Positions 26,093 through 62,732 are shown, counted from the first letter of the stretch. The stretch: DNA of 64,000 bases from Flavobacteriaceae bacterium UJ101 (GCA_001880285.1 CP016269.1:186001-250000), one strand, 5' to 3'. The notes: generated by a model from the letters alone, not told the origin. Made by a program: numbers and translations.

Positions 26093-26677
26093 ATGAATAC
26101 TAAAGCTCAATTAATAGAACATTTTAGAAAAGATCATAATTTAACCACTTCAGACATTGATAAGATCCTTCCTTTTTTCAAGTATCGTACTTTTGAAAAA
26201 AAAGAATTAATTATTAAAGAAAATGATCAGGTAATCAGCCAATTTTATATAGTAAAAGGAGCTATTGCAGCTTATCAAACTGATTTAAAAGGAAAACAAC
26301 ATACCATACAATTTGCTATTGATGATTGGTGGATTAGTGATTATAACGCTTATTATAATGATCATATTAGAGCTACGTTAACTTTAAAAGCTTTAGAGAA
26401 AACTCATGTTTTAGAAATAAAACGAACCGATTTGGAAAATCTTTTCATTCAAATACCTGCTTTAGACAGTAATTTTAGAAAACGATATGAAAAAGCATTT
26501 ACAAAACTTCAACAACGTGTCTTATCTAATTTAATTAAGACTCCTTTTGAACGATATCAATCTTTCGTAAAAGAATATCCTAAAATAGAACAAAAAGCAC
26601 CTAACTATCAACTAGCCTCTTTTCTAGGAATGACTCCTGAAACTCTAAGTAGAGTGCGTAAAAAGATCATTTCTTGA
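26093..26677 (+). CDS. Crp/Fnr-family transcriptional regulator
   Basis: A 194-residue protein with a cyclic-nucleotide-binding-like beta barrel (about 20-125, with KELIIKENDQVISQFYIVKG as its core) and a C-terminal winged helix (about 165-192, YQLASFLGMTPETLSRVRKK). It has no cysteine, so it cannot bind an Fnr-type iron-sulfur cluster, and the cAMP-contact residues of Crp are not apparent. It follows priA by 5 bases and is followed by an HbpS/GlcG-type protein with its own promoter. The ligand is unknown. Confidence 0.86.
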   Translation: MNTKAQLIEHFRKDHNLTTSDIDKILPFFKYRTFEKKELIIKENDQVISQFYIVKGAIAAYQTDLKGKQHTIQFAIDDWWISDYNAYYNDHIRATLTLKALEKTHVLEIKRTDLENLFIQIPALDSNFRKRYEKAFTKLQQRVLSNLIKTPFERYQSFVKEYPKIEQKAPNYQLASFLGMTPETLSRVRKKIIS

Positions 26678-26709
26678 TTTCAATCAATTTTTTTATTATG
26701 AATGCATCA

Positions 26710-26717
26710 TAAATTTG
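26710..26717 (+). promoter_or_regulatory. -7 element of the HbpS-like gene
   Basis: TAAATTTG, about 19 bases before the ATG at 26736. Confidence 0.55.
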
Positions 26718-26735
26718 TACTAAAATTAATTTAGT

Positions 26736-27128
26736 ATGGATATTTCGTTAGAAAGGGCGAAGGAAATTATTGAAAAAGCCAAAATAGAGGCCAATAAACT
26801 TGGTGTAAAAATGGATATTGCCATTGTTGATTCAGGTGCTAACTTAAAAGCTTTTGAACGTATGGATGGTGCTTGGCTTGGTTCTATTGACATTGCTATA
26901 AAAAAAGCCAAAACTGCTCGTTATTTTAATATGAATACTGGTGCTATTGGTGAATTATCTCAACCAGGAGGAGCATTATATAATATAGAACACTCTAATC
27001 ATGGTTTAATTTCTTTTCCTGGAGGAATTCCTATTAAAGATACAGAAGGAAATATTATAGGCGCTATTGGCGTATCAGGTTCAACTGTTGAAGATGATCA
27101 TCAAGTGGCTAATGCAGGACTATCATAA
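26736..27128 (+). CDS. GlcG/HbpS family protein (putative heme-binding)
   Basis: A 130-residue single-domain protein of the GlcG/HbpS fold: [31 protein letters not shown] and the closing GGIPI...[22 protein letters not shown] are typical. Some members (HbpS of Streptomyces) bind heme and act in redox sensing, others are associated with glycolate or diol metabolism. No signal peptide, so cytoplasmic. It follows a Crp/Fnr regulator, but nothing in the sequence decides the role. Confidence 0.85.
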
Positions 27129-54456: not shown

Positions 54457-54855
54457 TTAATAATTAGAATCAGGTCTATTTTTCCAAATAGCCATAAATT
54501 GAACTGTCGACATTTTACGTGCTGCATTTTTGGCTTTTTGTGCCTTCTCTCCTTCAAATAAAGAATCGATTGTTGTAAACCACAAATGTAACCATTGTCC
54601 AAAATGAGTTTGCTCAACTGTATATTTTAAGTTCTCATCCACTTTCTTATGAACTGCTGTTGGATTTCCTTTATATGCAGCTACGGCAAATAAATTTGTA
54701 ACCCAAAAATCAGTTAATTTAGACAAATGTGCAGGCCATTGATCTTCTGAAATATGACTATTAAAAATAGGCCCTAACATTTCATCTTCTCTTATCGCTT
54801 TATAAAAAGTATTTACTAGCAACGATACATCTTCCCTATTTTCTATTTTTTTCAT
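54457..54855 (-). CDS. Group III truncated hemoglobin
   Basis: A 132-residue globin-like protein: FYKAIREDEMLGPIFNSHI (about 17-35), HLSKLTDFWVTNLF (about 43-56), YKGNPTAVHKKV (about 60-71) and the proximal-histidine segment THFGQWLHLWFTTID (about 80-94). Group III trHbs bind O2 and NO and are often placed with NO or hypoxia genes. Last in the NO cluster, but a strong terminator separates it from norB, so it may also have its own promoter: TATATTTA lies a few bases before the ATG on the minus strand. Confidence 0.92.
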   Translation of the reverse strand: MKKIENREDVSLLVNTFYKAIREDEMLGPIFNSHISEDQWPAHLSKLTDFWVTNLFAVAAYKGNPTAVHKKVDENLKYTVEQTHFGQWLHLWFTTIDSLFEGEKAQKAKNAARKMSTVQFMAIWKNRPDSNY

Positions 54856-54871
54856 ACCTCTAAATATATGA

Positions 54872-54899
54872 AAAAGGGTATTGTAAACAATACCCTTTT
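54872..54899 (-). terminator. Terminator between norB and the truncated hemoglobin
   Basis: Perfect 12-bp stem AAAAGGGTATTG, loop of four bases, complement, then T-rich tail on the minus strand. Any expression of the hemoglobin from the cluster promoter must read through it. Confidence 0.88.
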
Positions 54900-54914
54900 A
54901 GATTAATGTTTATA

Positions 54915-57140
54915 TTATGCTCTATTTTTCATCTTCAAACAATACATTGTTTCTTCAACTGTAAACCAACAGAAGTAAACAATTCCACCTGAGAAAATAA
55001 CATCTCCAATGATACGCATCCATTTAATCACTTGTACTGAAGGTGAGTATAACAATTCAGCATCACGAGCAAATGAATATCCTTTTGTTATTGAAGTATA
55101 TGATTGAATTAAACCTATTGGTAATAAACTAAATACTACCATTGCAATCAATCCAATGTTCAATAACCAAAATGCTCTTTTTAACTTTTTACTATCCCAA
55201 CTTCTATCAGAATAGAATCGTAAACAAATTAAAATGAATCCCATACCTAACATTCCATACACCCCAAATAAAGCAGTATGTGCATGAACTGCTGTAGTAT
55301 TTAATCCTTGAATATAATATAAAGCAATTGGAGGATTAATTAAAAATCCAAATACTCCTGCTCCTAAGAAATTCCAGAAAGCAACTGAAATAAAGAAAAA
55401 GATAGGCCATTTATATCGTTGCATCCATTTTCTACTTTTTAATAAATCCCAACTTTCTTTTATTTCAAATCCCATTAACGTAAGAGGCACTACTTCTAAA
55501 GCACTAAAAGTGGCTCCTAAAGCAATTGCTTGAACTGGTGTACCAGAAAAATATAAGTGGTGTAATGTACCTATAATTCCTCCTGCTAAAAATATACTTG
55601 CAGATGCAATAGATGCTTTTCCAGCAGTTTTCATTGAAAGAACTCCCATTCTTGAGAATAAATAAGCAATTACAACGGTTGCAAAAACTTCAAAGAATCC
55701 TTCTACCCATAAGTGAACCAACCACCATCTCCAATAGTTGATTACCGGTAATGTACTATTCTCTCCATACATTAAACCTGAAAAGAAAAACATTCCAATA
55801 GCCATAACAGATACTAATAAAATAATCAATATATGCTTTGAAGAATCATTTTTACGAATACCATAAACTACATGTCTTCCCACCATAAACATCCAAAGAA
55901 TCAAGCCTATAGCTAAAAATATCTGCCAAAAACGACCTAAATCCATATATTCATATCCTTGATGTCCAAAGAAAAAGTTAGCTGTTAAATCTAAAAATTG
56001 ATGAACTCCTAACCATTCTCCTAACATAGATCCTAATACAATAACCAATAAAGCAACAAATAAGAAGTTAATCCCAAAGATTTGAAACTTCATTTCTTTA
56101 CCTGAAATTGCTGGAGCTAAAAATAACCCTGTTGCTAACCACGTAGCAGCAATCCAAAATACAGCTAATTGCTGATGCCATGTTCTTGTAATAGAATAAG
56201 GTAAATATTTCGCTAAATCAAAACCAAAAAATCCTTGTCCTTCTACGGTATAATGTACTGTTAACATTCCCAAAACAACTTGTAATGCGATTAGTAAGGA
56301 AATTACAAGATAATATTTCAATACTGCCTTTTGTGATCCTGTAAATTTCAAATCTAATAAAGGATCACTATCTGCTTTTGTAATCAATTCACCATGTTCA
56401 TGATTTAACAAATAATAATATGAAAGAAGTCCTACAAAGAACAGTAATAAAATAATTGAAAATCCTGACCAAATTAAAGAATCACTCGTTATTGTATTAT
56501 CAATTAAAGGTTCATGTGGCCAGTTTGAAGTATACGTATAATTTTTATTAGGTCTATTGGTACTTGCCGCCCACGAAGTCCAAAATAAAAAAGCATTTAG
56601 TTGCTCTAATTTTGTTTGATCTACTAAAGCTCCTTTTTGAATAGCGTATTCTGCTTTACCTTCAGAAAATATTTTACTATAGTGTTCAATATTACTTTTA
56701 ATTGCTGACAATCGTGCCTGTGAAATTGTAATGGATTTATCTTGAGGGTTATATGAATTTACCTTTACATCATTTATTAACCGAGCTTTCAATGCCGCTT
56801 TTTTCTCTACATCTAAATCATCATAACTCATATTAAAATCCGCTTTTGCCCAAGCATTAAGCATAAATACGGCTTCTTTATGAATCCAATCGGCCGTCCA
56901 ATCGGGCGCTACATAACTTCCATGCCCCCAAATAGATCCTACTTCCATTCCTCCAATTGATTCCCAAACATTTTGCCCTGTTTGTATATCTTTTTTAGTA
57001 TAAAAAACTTCTCCTGTCTCTTTTACTACTACTTTTTCTGGTATGGGAGGTTGTGTTTGATAAATATCCGTTCCAACCCAAATTAATGCAATAAATGACA
57101 GAACAACTACACTAATAAATCCTATCCAAATTTTTTTCAT
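54915..57140 (-). CDS. norB: Quinol-dependent nitric oxide reductase (qNOR)
   Basis: A 741-residue protein, the length of single-subunit qNOR. An N-terminal membrane anchor (about 7-27) precedes a soluble part fused in from NorC (GQNVWESIGGMEVGSIWGHGSYVAPDW, about 55-80, without heme-binding CxxCH), then twelve or so transmembrane helices with the heme-copper-oxidase-like histidines: TWHQQLAVFWIAATW (about 318-332), WRWWLVHLWVEGFFEVFATVV with the conserved glutamates (about 467-487), HHLYFSGTP and VHAHTALFG. It reduces 2 NO to N2O using quinol and detoxifies NO rather than conserving energy. It sits in a cluster with HTHP, cupin and truncated hemoglobin. Confidence 0.95.
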   Translation of the reverse strand: MKKIWIGFISVVVLSFIALIWVGTDIYQTQPPIPEKVVVKETGEVFYTKKDIQTGQNVWESIGGMEVGSIWGHGSYVAPDWTADWIHKEAVFMLNAWAKADFNMSYDDLDVEKKAALKARLINDVKVNSYNPQDKSITISQARLSAIKSNIEHYSKIFSEGKAEYAIQKGALVDQTKLEQLNAFLFWTSWAASTNRPNKNYTYTSNWPHEPLIDNTITSDSLIWSGFSIILLLFFVGLLSYYYLLNHEHGELITKADSDPLLDLKFTGSQKAVLKYYLVISLLIALQVVLGMLTVHYTVEGQGFFGFDLAKYLPYSITRTWHQQLAVFWIAATWLATGLFLAPAISGKEMKFQIFGINFLFVALLVIVLGSMLGEWLGVHQFLDLTANFFFGHQGYEYMDLGRFWQIFLAIGLILWMFMVGRHVVYGIRKNDSSKHILIILLVSVMAIGMFFFSGLMYGENSTLPVINYWRWWLVHLWVEGFFEVFATVVIAYLFSRMGVLSMKTAGKASIASASIFLAGGIIGTLHHLYFSGTPVQAIALGATFSALEVVPLTLMGFEIKESWDLLKSRKWMQRYKWPIFFFISVAFWNFLGAGVFGFLINPPIALYYIQGLNTTAVHAHTALFGVYGMLGMGFILICLRFYSDRSWDSKKLKRAFWLLNIGLIAMVVFSLLPIGLIQSYTSITKGYSFARDAELLYSPSVQVIKWMRIIGDVIFSGGIVYFCWFTVEETMYCLKMKNRA

Positions 57141-57168
57141 TATATATCATTTAATATTTTTCAATATC

Positions 57169-57186
57169 ACAAGAGTATGCTCTTGT
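57169..57186 (-). promoter_or_regulatory. Hairpin or operator just upstream of norB
   Basis: ACAAGAGTATGCTCTTGT has 7-bp perfect arms and a 4-base centre, 29 bases before the norB start. No T-run follows, so it is not a terminator; it may be an mRNA-stability hairpin or a second regulator site. Confidence 0.45.
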
Positions 57187-57217
57187 AATGTCTTTTGATC
57201 CCCTTATCTTGTTAAAA

Positions 57218-57448
57218 TTATTTCCAATAATTATTTGCTGCTGATATCGTTTGAAAATTCACAGCAATAACGTGTGAAGCAGCTGTTAATCCTTCTGCAT
57301 TATTAGCATAATCAGGACGTAATTTTTTTAATACTTCAACATCGGGCTGAGTTGATTTAACTCCCATTCTAGATAATTTAATCGCTAATTCAAATCCTTC
57401 TTGAGGTGTAGCCGTTTGTAGTGATTCTAACCAAACTTCTTTATCCAT
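57218..57448 (-). CDS. Hexameric tyrosine-coordinated heme protein (HTHP)
   Basis: A 76-residue protein from the ATG at 57448 (MDKEVWLESLQTATPQEGFE); the longer frame to 57514 overlaps the cupin gene and is not family sequence. It follows the HTHP pattern closely: TATPQEGFELAIKLSRMGVKSTQPD, KLRPDYANNAEGLTAASHV with the heme-ligand tyrosine at Y47 (Tyr45 in the Silicibacter pomeroyi protein), and the C-terminal NYWK. HTHP forms a hexamer with one heme per subunit and shows peroxidase and weak catalase activity in vitro; its physiological role is unknown. Here it is sandwiched between cupin and norB, which suggests a role in NO or peroxynitrite handling. Confidence 0.9.
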   Translation of the reverse strand: MDKEVWLESLQTATPQEGFELAIKLSRMGVKSTQPDVEVLKKLRPDYANNAEGLTAASHVIAVNFQTISAANNYWK

Positions 57449-57458
57449 TTTTTTATTT

Positions 57459-57791
57459 TTATATGTTTTTAACTCTTTGTAAAGAATCGGACTTCGATAA
57501 TGTAAGACGAACAATACTTTCTTTTACTGCTGTTAAATCATGTGGGACTCCACCTTCTAACGTTATAAGATCCCCTTCTTTTAATAATACTATTTGATTA
57601 TTAACTCCAAATTTTATTTCTCCTTTAAAAACTTGAACCACTATAGGATAAGGTGTTTGGTGCTCTTGCATAATCTGACCTTCTTTAAAAGAAATACGGA
57701 TTTCTTTACTAAAATCACTTTCCAAAAGAAGCTTAATTGCAGGCTTAGAATCATTAAATTCTAAATTTTCTAAAATTGAACTCGTTTTCAT
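57459..57791 (-). CDS. Cupin-domain protein of the NO cluster
   Basis: A 110-residue single-domain cupin: SFKEGQIMQEHQTPYPIVVQVFKGEIKF (about 34-61) and LKEGDLITLEGGVPHDLTAVKES (about 69-91) supply the two cupin motifs, with EHQTP and PHDL as likely metal-ligand regions. First gene of the NO cluster; stop at 57459 and HTHP start at 57448 are 10 bases apart. Its role is unknown; small cupins can be metal-dependent dioxygenases or sensors. Confidence 0.85.
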   Translation of the reverse strand: MKTSSILENLEFNDSKPAIKLLLESDFSKEIRISFKEGQIMQEHQTPYPIVVQVFKGEIKFGVNNQIVLLKEGDLITLEGGVPHDLTAVKESIVRLTLSKSDSLQRVKNI

Positions 57792-57814
57792 ATCGTATTT
57801 GTTTTATTTTGCTA

Positions 57815-57860
57815 CAAACTTATAGTGAACATTGAGCTCATTTTTATGACATATGTCATA
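57815..57860 (-). promoter_or_regulatory. Promoter and operator of the NO cluster
   Basis: TAAGTTTG on the minus strand (57815-57822) is the -7 element; the expected -33 position is poor (TAAA). A perfect 16-bp palindrome TATGACATATGTCATA (57845-57860) is centred about 42-44 bases before the expected start of transcription, the class II activator position of Crp/Fnr proteins. Confidence 0.65.
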
Positions 57861-57911: not shown

Positions 57912-57954
57912 TAAAAAACGCCTCAAAACATGATGTTTGGAAGCGTCTTTTTAA
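57912..57954 (-). terminator. Terminator of the FAD oxidoreductase gene
   Basis: Imperfect hairpin with arms ACGCTTCCAAACAT and ATGTTTTGAGGCGT on the minus strand and T-rich tail. Confidence 0.7.
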
Positions 57955-59465: not shown

Positions 59466-60569
59466 CTATTCTGTTACTAATCCCCATTTACATGAAAAAT
59501 ACTCATCTTGTTTAGCTACATCATCTGCACTTAATATTCTATCATAGAAAAAAACTTCATGAAATCTTGCTGGTGCTGATTTAGTATCTGCAACATTTAA
59601 AAAAAATCGTAATCGATCAAAAGCCGAACCTCCTGTTACACTAGGTGACGCTATTAAACCGCCATCTATATAAAAGAAAAATTGCCCTCCTCGTGTTGAC
59701 GCATTTCCATCGTCATCTTTATATGACAGTCTAAATAAATGTAATTGATCATCAATTGCAGGCCCACAAAAATCTCTTCTAGAACTGGCTTCTGTTGTTT
59801 CTTGATGTCTCAAAATATATAACCCTTTCGAAACTGAATTTCCTGTATTTGCACAAGTAATAGCACCTGTTCCTCCTTGACCTATCTGCCAAGCTCCAAT
59901 ACCATTTGAACCTGCTGAGGCAAAAAACATTCCATTAAGAATATCAGTAGAAGTTGTAAAACCAGCAATCATAAATAAATCAAAATCTTTATTATCAAAT
60001 GATTCTCCTGCTTGAAAAGTATATTCTAAACCTGAATCTGAAAAACTAGCATTAGAACTTACTGAATTACTTGTTCTATACGATGTACGTAAAACATCAT
60101 CATATTCTATTAAATTTTGTCTGGTCGTTCTTAAATTTCTACCATTTCCCGAAAGATCATTAACAAAACGAAGGTTTCCAACTTCAAACCCGGAATCCAA
60201 AGGTGTATTTCCATTCCAATCAATAACACTTGTACGATCTGAAGCGTCTACATATAAAAATTTAGCTAATGTAGCTGGGAAATTAGCTGAAACCGTAGAA
60301 CCACAACAGTAATTATACCATTCTGCTGTTTCATCATTATAGGTTTCTACACAACCAATATCCGTATTAAAAATTGCCAATCCATCAACCGGAGAACTAA
60401 TAGCATCTCTCTGGACTTCTGTTAATCTTGGCATTATTAAAGCTCCTTTTGAATTACTTTTCACTTCTAAAACAGCATCAGAAGTCACAGTTGAAGTCCC
60501 AATTCCTACTTGCGCAAAAACAATTGAACAAAGGAAACTATATATTATTGTAATTTGTATTTTTTTCAT
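59466..60569 (-). CDS. Exported LamG-like protein, paralog 1 of 3
   Basis: A 367-residue protein with signal peptide (MKKIQITIIYSFLCSIVFAQ). Residues about 20-95 form the QVGIGT-type head (GALIMPRLTEVQRDAI, GLAIFNTDIGCVETYN, NYCC with paired cysteines). Residues about 100-367 look like a LamG/concanavalin-A-like sandwich: DLSGNGRNLRT, LYILRHQETTEASS, CGPAIDDQLHLFRLSY, GQFFFYIDGGLI, HEVFFYDRILSADDVAKQDEYFSCKWG. It may bind a glycan or protein. It shares 30-40% apparent similarity by eye with the next two genes; cysteines are conserved at the same places. Last gene of the cluster. Confidence 0.8.
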   Translation of the reverse strand: MKKIQITIIYSFLCSIVFAQVGIGTSTVTSDAVLEVKSNSKGALIMPRLTEVQRDAISSPVDGLAIFNTDIGCVETYNDETAEWYNYCCGSTVSANFPATLAKFLYVDASDRTSVIDWNGNTPLDSGFEVGNLRFVNDLSGNGRNLRTTRQNLIEYDDVLRTSYRTSNSVSSNASFSDSGLEYTFQAGESFDNKDFDLFMIAGFTTSTDILNGMFFASAGSNGIGAWQIGQGGTGAITCANTGNSVSKGLYILRHQETTEASSRRDFCGPAIDDQLHLFRLSYKDDDGNASTRGGQFFFYIDGGLIASPSVTGGSAFDRLRFFLNVADTKSAPARFHEVFFYDRILSADDVAKQDEYFSCKWGLVTE

Positions 60570-60591
60570 TTTTCAAAATTCTATTATAATT

Positions 60592-61647
60592 TTAAATTCC
60601 CCATTGACAAGTTAAATACTTTTCTTGTTCTGAAGCATCTTGTGTACTTAAAACTCGATCATAAATTATGACAGATTGTATTTTTGATTGAGAAGAGATA
60701 GTACCTGCTCTATTCTGAAATAAGCGAACACGATCAAAAACTGCTCCATTTAAGGTTGTTGATTCAATTAATTCATTATCTATATAAAAAGAAACAGTAG
60801 AGGCTCCAGAGTCATAAGATATACGAAAAAGATGTTCTTTATCATCAATTGCTGGTCCACAAATATTAGCAGTTGCTCCACTATTATTCAATTTTAATAT
60901 ATATCTTCCTGTACCTAACACTCCTCCTGTAAGGTTAGAACATGGAACTGAAGATCCTTGTCCTAATTCCCAAGTACCATTCCCGGTTGTATTAGACGAA
61001 GCCATTAACATAGCATCAGAAGAAGCTGTACTCGATTGAAAACCACCTAGAAGTGTCATATCAAAATCTTTTCCAGAAAGCTCCTGACCACTAGTAAATA
61101 CGTGTTCTAAAGCATTATTTGAACTTCCATCTACAGATAAATAATTATCAATCACATAGGAATTTTGTGCAAAATTTGTATACGATATATAATTTGCTGC
61201 TGTAGCTTGAAGATTTCTACCATTTGATGAACGATCAAGCCAGCTTGCTACATCATTTTCATCAAATGAAGTTTGATTTGCTGTAAAACCATTTGCATCT
61301 ACTACACTTGTTTTATCAGCTAATGTTACATATAAATATTTATCTATCTGACTTAAATAATCTGCTGTAATCTTATCTTGACAACATGGACTAAACCATG
61401 TTTGAGTTTGTGCATTATAGAATTCCAGACACTTTAAATCTGTATTATAAATCGTTAATCCGTTTGAAATTGCTCCTATAGCATTTCGTTCAACCACTGA
61501 TAATCTTGGATACAAAATCCCTTGATCAGAAGATTCTACATGTAGTATAGCTGACGCATCTACATTTATTGCATTTTTTGATATTCCAACTTGTCCAAAA
61601 GCATGTATTAAACAAGTACTTAAAATTAAAAGTATATACTGTTTCAT
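60592..61647 (-). CDS. Exported LamG-like protein, paralog 2 of 3
   Basis: A 351-residue protein from the ATG at 61647 (MKQYILLILSTCLIHAFGQ), which starts the signal peptide; the longer frame to 61671 would overlap the next gene. It has the same parts as its neighbours: QVGISKNAI head, GLTIYNTDLKCLEFYN, WFSPCCQD, then WLDRSSNGRNLQAT, CGPAIDDKEHLFRISYD, TVSFYIDNELIES and VLSTQDASEQEKYLTCQWG. Only 22 bases from paralog 1 and 5 bases from paralog 3, so it is in one operon with them. Confidence 0.8.
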   Translation of the reverse strand: MKQYILLILSTCLIHAFGQVGISKNAINVDASAILHVESSDQGILYPRLSVVERNAIGAISNGLTIYNTDLKCLEFYNAQTQTWFSPCCQDKITADYLSQIDKYLYVTLADKTSVVDANGFTANQTSFDENDVASWLDRSSNGRNLQATAANYISYTNFAQNSYVIDNYLSVDGSSNNALEHVFTSGQELSGKDFDMTLLGGFQSSTASSDAMLMASSNTTGNGTWELGQGSSVPCSNLTGGVLGTGRYILKLNNSGATANICGPAIDDKEHLFRISYDSGASTVSFYIDNELIESTTLNGAVFDRVRLFQNRAGTISSQSKIQSVIIYDRVLSTQDASEQEKYLTCQWGI

Positions 61648-61652
61648 ATTCG

Positions 61653-62732
61653 TTAATTTTGAACTCCCCATTTACATGTTAAATATTCTGTTTGTGCTCC
61701 TTGATCTGATTCGCTTAATATATTATCATAAAAAGCAACTTCTTGGATATTCGCTAAAGAGGTTACTCCTCCTGCTCTATTTCTAAAAAAACGTAATCGA
61801 TTAAAACGACTTCCATTGCTTGCTGGTGCAGTAGCAATTTGTTCTCCATCTATATAAATTGTAAAAACACCATCATTAGTACCTGTATTTCCATCAGGGT
61901 TAGCTTCTAGAGTAACTCTAAATAAATGAAGTTTATCATCAATTGCTGGCCCACAAACTTCATAAAAACTTCCACTTTCAGAATAACGGAAAACATATTT
62001 TCCTTCTCCATCACCAGAAGTATTGTCACAAGCAGCAGATGAAGAACCTTGCCCAATCTGAAAAGAACCATCTATGGTGCTATCATATGAAGAAAAGAAT
62101 ACAGCATTGGTAACAGCTGTAGCACTTGGAAAACCTGCTACAATATTTAAATCAAAATCTTGATCATCAAAATTTTCAGCTCCGGTAAGCTCATATTCTA
62201 AATCTCCATTCGAACTTGCATTAGAAGCTATATAAATTTCTGAATAATAACTTGATTGTGGAATCGATATATACTCAATTAAATTAGTGCTTGTTGTTTT
62301 TAAATGTCTATCATTACCTGATAAATCAGATAACTGTTCAACATTATTTGAATTAAACCCTGTTTGGGCCGCATTCGTACCACTAAAATCTATTACAGAT
62401 GTTGCTTCACTAGCATCTATGTATAAAAATTTAGTTAATGTACTTGGAAAATTAGCTGCTACCTTCGCTGCACAACAATAATTAAACCAAGTACCATCTG
62501 TGGCATTATACGATTCCATACATCCAAGTTCTGTATTGTATACTAACAATCCGTTAGCTGGACTTGAAATATTGGCTCTTTGGCTATTAGTTAATTGAGG
62601 AATAACAACTCCTTTGTCTGAACTTTTAATCTCAATAAAAGCTGACGGATCAATTACTTCTGTACCGATACCTACTTGCGCATGTAAAGAAGAAGCTCCT
62701 AGAATACTTATAAATAAAAATTTCCCCCTCAT
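61653..62732 (-). CDS. Exported LamG-like protein, paralog 3 of 3
   Basis: A 359-residue protein, first in the three-gene operon; signal peptide MRGKFLFISILGASSLHAQ. QVGIGTEVIDPSAFIEI head, GLLVYNTELGCMESYN, WFNYCCAAK, then DLSGNDRHLKTT, CGPAIDDKLHLFRVTLEAN, GVFTIYIDGEQIA and DQGAQTEYLTCKWGV. Promoter -7 TATTTTTG at 62814-62821 on the minus strand. The three copies likely arose by tandem duplication and now differ mainly between the conserved blocks. Confidence 0.8.
   Translation of the reverse strand: MRGKFLFISILGASSLHAQVGIGTEVIDPSAFIEIKSSDKGVVIPQLTNSQRANISSPANGLLVYNTELGCMESYNATDGTWFNYCCAAKVAANFPSTLTKFLYIDASEATSVIDFSGTNAAQTGFNSNNVEQLSDLSGNDRHLKTTSTNLIEYISIPQSSYYSEIYIASNASSNGDLEYELTGAENFDDQDFDLNIVAGFPSATAVTNAVFFSSYDSTIDGSFQIGQGSSSAACDNTSGDGEGKYVFRYSESGSFYEVCGPAIDDKLHLFRVTLEANPDGNTGTNDGVFTIYIDGEQIATAPASNGSRFNRLRFFRNRAGGVTSLANIQEVAFYDNILSESDQGAQTEYLTCKWGVQN

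Follow-up and report, generated by a model that had tools for sequence, protein, structure and literature searches.

The hexameric tyrosine-coordinated haem protein (HTHP) is known from its structure and from peroxidase-type activity in vitro, and to our knowledge it has no known physiological role. The protein is hexameric, and each subunit binds one haem non-covalently (PMC4813847). Solved quinol-dependent nitric oxide (NO) reductases (qNORs; PDB 6fwf, 6l1x, 8bgw and 6qq5, and 3ayf from Geobacillus) carry at the N-terminus a fused cytochrome c-like domain that lacks CXXCH, and nitrogen-oxide regulons of the HcpR/FNR/DNR type have norB among their targets, with HcpR boxes TTGACnnnnGTCAA at hcp in Anabaena and at norB in Synechocystis (Rodionov et al., PMC1274295). 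The solo cupin HP0902 of Helicobacter pylori (PDB 5j4g and 5j4f) is uncharacterized and was hardly described in the literature searched. We analysed a stretch of 64,000 nucleotides from Flavobacteriaceae bacterium UJ101 (CP016269.1:186001-250000; hereafter the window), the minus strand of which carries, at positions 54457-57860 and in this order, genes for a cupin, HTHP, qNOR (norB) and a group III truncated haemoglobin (trHb). Whereas the HTHP gene of Ruegeria (Silicibacter) pomeroyi (PDB 2oyy) is found on a megaplasmid next to redoxin and MOSC genes, that of the window adjoins NO genes; unlike the solved qNORs, the window qNOR shares a predicted operon with a cupin and HTHP and is part of a Flavobacteriales lineage in which the cupin is a fixed partner. 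At the level of the operon, we consider it fairly probable that this unit is a qNOR operon induced by low oxygen or NO, in which the cupin is fixed within the lineage and HTHP is optional.

The identity, order and strand of the four genes, as well as the gaps of 10 bases between cupin and HTHP and of 77 bases between HTHP and norB, were borne out as claimed in an earlier note on this DNA, with Pfam and PDB matches and coordinates in agreement. The norB product (741 amino acids; 54915-57140) matches PF22085 (E 2.6e-67) and COX1 (PF00115; E 3.5e-55), and its best PDB match, over the full length, is the qNOR 6fwf (E 1e-230), with matches to solved qNORs extending over approximately 720 residues. 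It combines a COX1-type catalytic subunit with a fused N-terminal cytochrome c-like domain that lacks CXXCH and thus haem c, and is predicted to reduce NO to N2O with quinol. HTHP (76 amino acids, like the Ruegeria protein it matches, 2oyy; 57218-57448) meets PF11534 with an E value of 2.7e-35 and 121 bits (cut-off 25). Y47, the haem-ligand tyrosine by alignment, and R27, probably a residue of the distal pocket, are kept in the Ruegeria protein and invariant in 82 aligned sequences, and the window protein is predicted to be a hexamer with peroxidase/catalase activity. The cupin (110 amino acids; 57459-57791) matches Cupin_2 (E 3.8e-7, 30.1 bits; cut-off 27.2), and Foldseek placed its AlphaFold model (pLDDT 88) closest to HP0902 (5j4g; TM 0.94 by target length, 40% identity; profile match E 2e-21), so that profile and model both assign it to the Cupin_2 superfamily fold. 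The canonical 3-His/1-Glu metal motif (HxH...E and H) is absent from the alignment of the cupin family, in which only H44 and H84 are conserved; both histidine positions are kept in HP0902. The sole PDB match of trHb (132 amino acids; 54457-54855) is the group III truncated haemoglobin 2ig3 (E 1.5e-11), and a Pfam search at 1e-3 gave no match.

Upstream of the cupin gene, a palindrome ATGACATATGTCAT (57846-57859) is followed after 23 bases by the box TAAGTTTG (TAnnTTTG; 57815-57822), neither of which had been noticed in the earlier note. We take TAnnTTTG to be the -11 to -4 promoter element of Bacteroidota; the centre of the palindrome would therefore lie at -41.5 relative to the +1 that the box implies at approximately 57811; this is the class II position at which activators of the FNR type bind. 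This symmetric, FNR/HcpR-type box resembles TTGACnnnnGTCAA and differs from the boxes of the described HcpR/FNR/DNR regulons in its W outer positions and its coupling, at approximately -41.5, to the Bacteroidota TAnnTTTG element; the regulators available here are candidates only, among them the Crp/Fnr protein encoded at 2048805-2049383 of the genome. A composite pattern, WTGAYN4RTCAW-N22/23-TAnnTTTG, occurred 144 times in 24 genomes, compared with 9 occurrences of the reversed pattern used as control. Seven of these sites are in the genome of UJ101, including those of the cupin operon, of nrfHA and of an operon of trHb with m153, the latter site lying between m153-trHb and a divergent Crp/Fnr gene. 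In 40 hand-picked regions, the genes downstream of composite sites include ccoS-ccoN (cbb3 oxidase), cytochrome c-nosZ, nrfHA, a HemN-like radical SAM gene, universal stress protein genes, m153-trHb and m93; the remaining sites precede unrelated or unidentified genes. Nearly the same box spacing is seen upstream of a trHb-cupin operon (G149, L123), of trHb-cupin in Tunicatimonas (L137) and of ccoS-ccoN (G257, L120). Five other FNR-type boxes were found close to genes for cupin, cbb3 or NOR, in relatives or in UJ101 itself; three have an exact TAnnTTTG one base nearer, and a fourth (L125) has a box deviating at one position there. The fifth, an FNR-like box 82 nucleotides upstream of norC of UJ101, lacks a TAnnTTTG at the class II distance.

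The palindrome alone proved a poor regulon marker: the strict form WTGACN4GTCAW has 9 sites in the genome, of which the 8 outside the cupin operon are mostly inside open reading frames beside unrelated genes, and the relaxed form, at 186 sites, is too frequent. Useful information came only from the composite with TAnnTTTG, which provides a simple means to list low-oxygen/NO operons in Bacteroidota. Two further observations concern such promoters. A second composite FNR-type promoter of the window, TTGATTTCAATCAA-22-TAAATTTG (within 26674-27128), is situated at the end of a Crp/Fnr-family gene and upstream of a gene for an HbpS-like haem-binding protein. The families m153 (DUF4149-like; L012:3774-4244) and m93 (L012:7643-7924), also present at L279, are small and membrane-like, and recur in Bacteroidota with NO genes and the composite promoter.

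The link between the cupin and norB in relatives turned out stronger than the earlier note had claimed. In a survey of 298 genomes of the order, 25 encode a qNOR above the family cut-off. The lineage of approximately 80% identity to which the window qNOR belongs is represented by 4 of the genomes, in all of which the cupin is upstream of norB, with HTHP between the two only in the window genome; the cupin-norB operons of the other three (G252, G277 and G132) are without HTHP. The same pair is found at eight Aquimarina loci; in all, the cupin directly precedes norB in each of the 11 close (approximately 80%) qNOR homologues examined besides that of the window. The remaining qNORs of the order (50-55% identity) mostly follow a RIC or Rrf2 gene and a small protein, the cupin being absent save in one divergent case. 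A cupin orthologue is encoded at 16 further loci of the order, and at 12 of these a gene for qNOR, trHb, hemerythrin/RIC, hmp, Rrf2 or cbb3 lies no more than 5 kb away, Rrf2 alone being found at 4 compared with 0.09 expected. In Tunicatimonas (Cytophagales) the cupin gene overlaps trHb, with RIC, Rrf2 and nosZ nearby, and the Aureibacter cupin is without such neighbours. Because it is paired with norB in close qNOR homologues and has NO-type neighbours at other loci of the order, the cupin is the tightest accessory and constant partner of this qNOR lineage, and the fixed pair points to an accessory, so far unexplored, of one of the main NO reductases of bacteria.

HTHP is distributed differently. 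It is present in 3 of the 298 genomes, and in Aquimarina it is encoded at the 3' end of a cluster, Rrf2-m153-(ferredoxin)-cupin-norB-trHb-m93-HTHP (L007-L019), which contains all four window genes and differs from the window operon in this position of HTHP, in the Rrf2 regulator and in the additional m153, m93 and ferredoxin genes. Since eight Aquimarina loci cluster the same genes (trHb and norB being listed as separate pieces in a few), the grouping of the four is more than chance. For HTHP itself these loci are not an independent sample, having been found through it: they are eight of the 80 nearest HTHP homologues, drawn from several phyla, the neighbourhoods of which we inspected. The earlier note had expected HTHP and the cupin to co-occur with norB across relatives. 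Taken literally, this held for the cupin and did not hold for HTHP, as most of the 80 HTHP genes lie far from norB, and approximately four fifths of the loci outside Aquimarina have no NO marker within 8 kb. In a broader sense the expectation stood: HTHP is enriched near Rrf2 and RIC and adjoins hmp, NnrS, trHb, DUF1971 and cbb3 genes in several phyla. In 50 of the genomes carrying these homologues, with expectations taken from the gene density of the same genomes and approximately 110 Rrf2 matches above the cut-off, Rrf2 was found 6 times near HTHP compared with 0.43 expected (approximately 14-fold, P 6e-6) and RIC 4 times compared with 0.13 (approximately 30-fold, P 1e-5), these Poisson values treating genomes as independent. 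Thus, the company of NO genes exceeds chance, but is a minority context in the family.

Individual neighbourhoods include hmp-Rrf2 in Rhizobium (L047) and NnrS-Rrf2 in Kiritimatiellia (L062), as well as, in two Paracoccus (L041, L055), DUF1971, the family to which YeaR belongs. In Escherichia coli, YeaR is induced by NO and regulated by NsrR (PMC5320621). On plasmids, HTHP is found as Rrf2/ytfE-HTHP in Paracoccus versutus, as Rrf2-cbb3-HTHP in Roseinatronobacter and Roseibium, and as hmpA-Rrf2-catalase-HTHP-protoglobin in Hymenobacter; contrary plasmid contexts are mercury genes in Chelativorans, the redoxin/MOSC genes of Ruegeria, and superoxide dismutase (SOD) with an annotated haem-binding protein on an E. 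coli plasmid. Our literature search returned no paper tying HTHP to NsrR.

Several other features of HTHP loci were recorded. In a proteobacterial metagenome-assembled genome (L057:8001-8623), a homologous cupin directly follows HTHP, an independent HTHP-cupin pair. At L118 (8826-15000) and L017 (6773-12000), HTHP is within clusters that also encode a cbb3-like oxidase subunit, FixO fused to cytochrome c, and RIC; the two loci have two small unknown proteins (approximately 90 and 140 amino acids) in common, and L118 also has Rrf2 and trHb. The COX1 protein beside HTHP at L118 was rejected as an NO reductase, its best PDB matches being to the cbb3 subunit CcoN and the position of the cross-link tyrosine appearing kept; the COX1 protein at L071 is likewise cbb3-like, and that of 793 amino acids at L050 is closer in sequence to cytochrome c oxidases than to qNOR. 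In Kordia, Gaetbulibacter and Flagellimonas (L010, L014, L016), a gene for an AraC-family regulator of 280 amino acids precedes HTHP.

The earlier note had assigned the unit to NO defence, and a role in NO defence or NO respiration is supported by the qNOR identity, by the FNR/HcpR-type promoter common to nrfHA and m153-trHb of the same genome, and by the same mix of genes in relatives. A second NO locus, at approximately 2.38 Mb (G000:C1:2379560-2384450, L136), carries norC-norB-nirK (with a fused cytochrome c)-FGE-sulfatase-like-norQ, a partial denitrification cluster, nirK being our reading of a gene for a multicopper oxidase joined to cytochrome c. Production of NO from nitrite is thus probable in this organism, with the qNOR as an additional sink. 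With nirK and cNOR genes in one operon and nrfHA behind a promoter of the same type, the window qNOR would most likely serve detoxification and micro-oxic respiration.

The operon is most likely controlled by an activator of the FNR/HcpR type that acts under low oxygen or in the presence of NO. Such a protein of the CRP/FNR family would bind ATGACATATGTCAT at -41.5 and turn on cupin-HTHP-norB, which we infer to be co-transcribed, from the TAnnTTTG promoter; the qNOR would reduce NO to N2O and trHb would handle residual NO, while the cupin would act as a conserved, small soluble accessory without the full canonical metal motif. Certain observations weigh against this scheme. Because a strong terminator-like hairpin found by the pattern scan (54872-54899), overlooked in the earlier note, separates norB and trHb, the latter may be co-transcribed only in part, and the hairpin, which would attenuate read-through, speaks against full co-transcription. 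The genome encodes 12 cNMP-binding proteins as candidates for the activator, and FNR-type boxes directly upstream of HTHP at the 80 loci elsewhere (3 compared with 0.76 expected) are not convincing. Moreover, Aquimarina and G252 carry an Rrf2 gene at the operon, indicating that control differs among relatives; the Rrf2 linkage of an NsrR regulon is seen in the Aquimarina relatives and is absent near the window operon, the 2 Rrf2 genes of the genome lying elsewhere.

What HTHP contributes is less certain. We picture it as an optional haem protein of the cytosol that joined the operon, where it would most likely serve as an auxiliary peroxidase or oxidant scavenger at the transition between NO and O2; this peroxidase role is a tentative guess, as is the removal of peroxynitrite or peroxide proposed in the earlier note, and the sensing or repair suggested there for the cupin is likewise conjecture. 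HTHP could instead supply haem: with the hexamer as reservoir or chaperone, it would buffer the haem needed by qNOR (haem b, b3), by trHb and by cytochromes, or shield haem from NO. The single non-covalent haem of each subunit (PMC4813847), the haem enzymes of several classes among its neighbours elsewhere (cbb3, hmp, protoglobin, catalase, qNOR), the haem-binding protein on the E. coli plasmid and the HbpS-like protein of the same genome under the same promoter type are in line with this; yet most HTHP genes are alone, without haem-enzyme genes nearby, and the invariant tyrosine/arginine pocket fits catalysis at least equally, making a supply function rather unlikely.

The interposition between cupin and norB in a single genome, the 3' position in Aquimarina, the absence from the G252, G277 and G132 operons, the rarity in the order and the varied plasmid contexts, including mercury and SOD neighbours, would also be expected if HTHP were a passenger: a mobile stress gene, inserted at this place with no functional tie. 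However, HTHP occupies two different places in operons of this type, which suggests that it was recruited more than once, and the over-representation of Rrf2 and RIC comes from 50 other genomes, so we regard a mere passenger as improbable. That HTHP is itself NO-reactive, an NO or nitroxyl peroxidase or denitrosylase acting as a detoxifier of its own in species without norB, would agree with its linkage to Rrf2, RIC, hmp, NnrS, DUF1971 and trHb without norB in Alphaproteobacteria, Hymenobacter, Kiritimatiellia and Acidobacteria; with the large majority of loci outside Aquimarina devoid of an NO marker and no biochemical support in the literature search, we hold this to be very doubtful. Beyond the auxiliary peroxidase reading favoured here, it is possible, if somewhat short of probable, that in several phyla HTHP recurs in the gene sets with which bacteria respond to NO, under NsrR-like or FNR/HcpR-like control, and that the HP0902-like cupin is obligate as an accessory in one qNOR lineage; both would then be undescribed components of NO detoxification. 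The Rrf2/RIC linkage and the FNR-type promoter in the window genome make the role of HTHP a testable question.

As for the borders of the unit, a terminator-like hairpin GACGCTTC...GAGGCGTTTTTT (57918-57946) of the minus strand, read from the sequence, not flagged by the pattern scan and not mentioned in the earlier note, appears to end the upstream FAD oxidoreductase gene and to mark the operon boundary. A short hairpin in the HTHP-norB gap (57169-57186), seen in the sequence and by the pattern scan, has no T-run in the sense direction. At the other end, trHb is convergent with an amidohydrolase gene of the opposite strand. Farther away in the window (59466-62732) are three tandem paralogous proteins of approximately 360 amino acids, for one of which a Pfam scan gave no match; they are probably secreted and have similar N- and C-termini.

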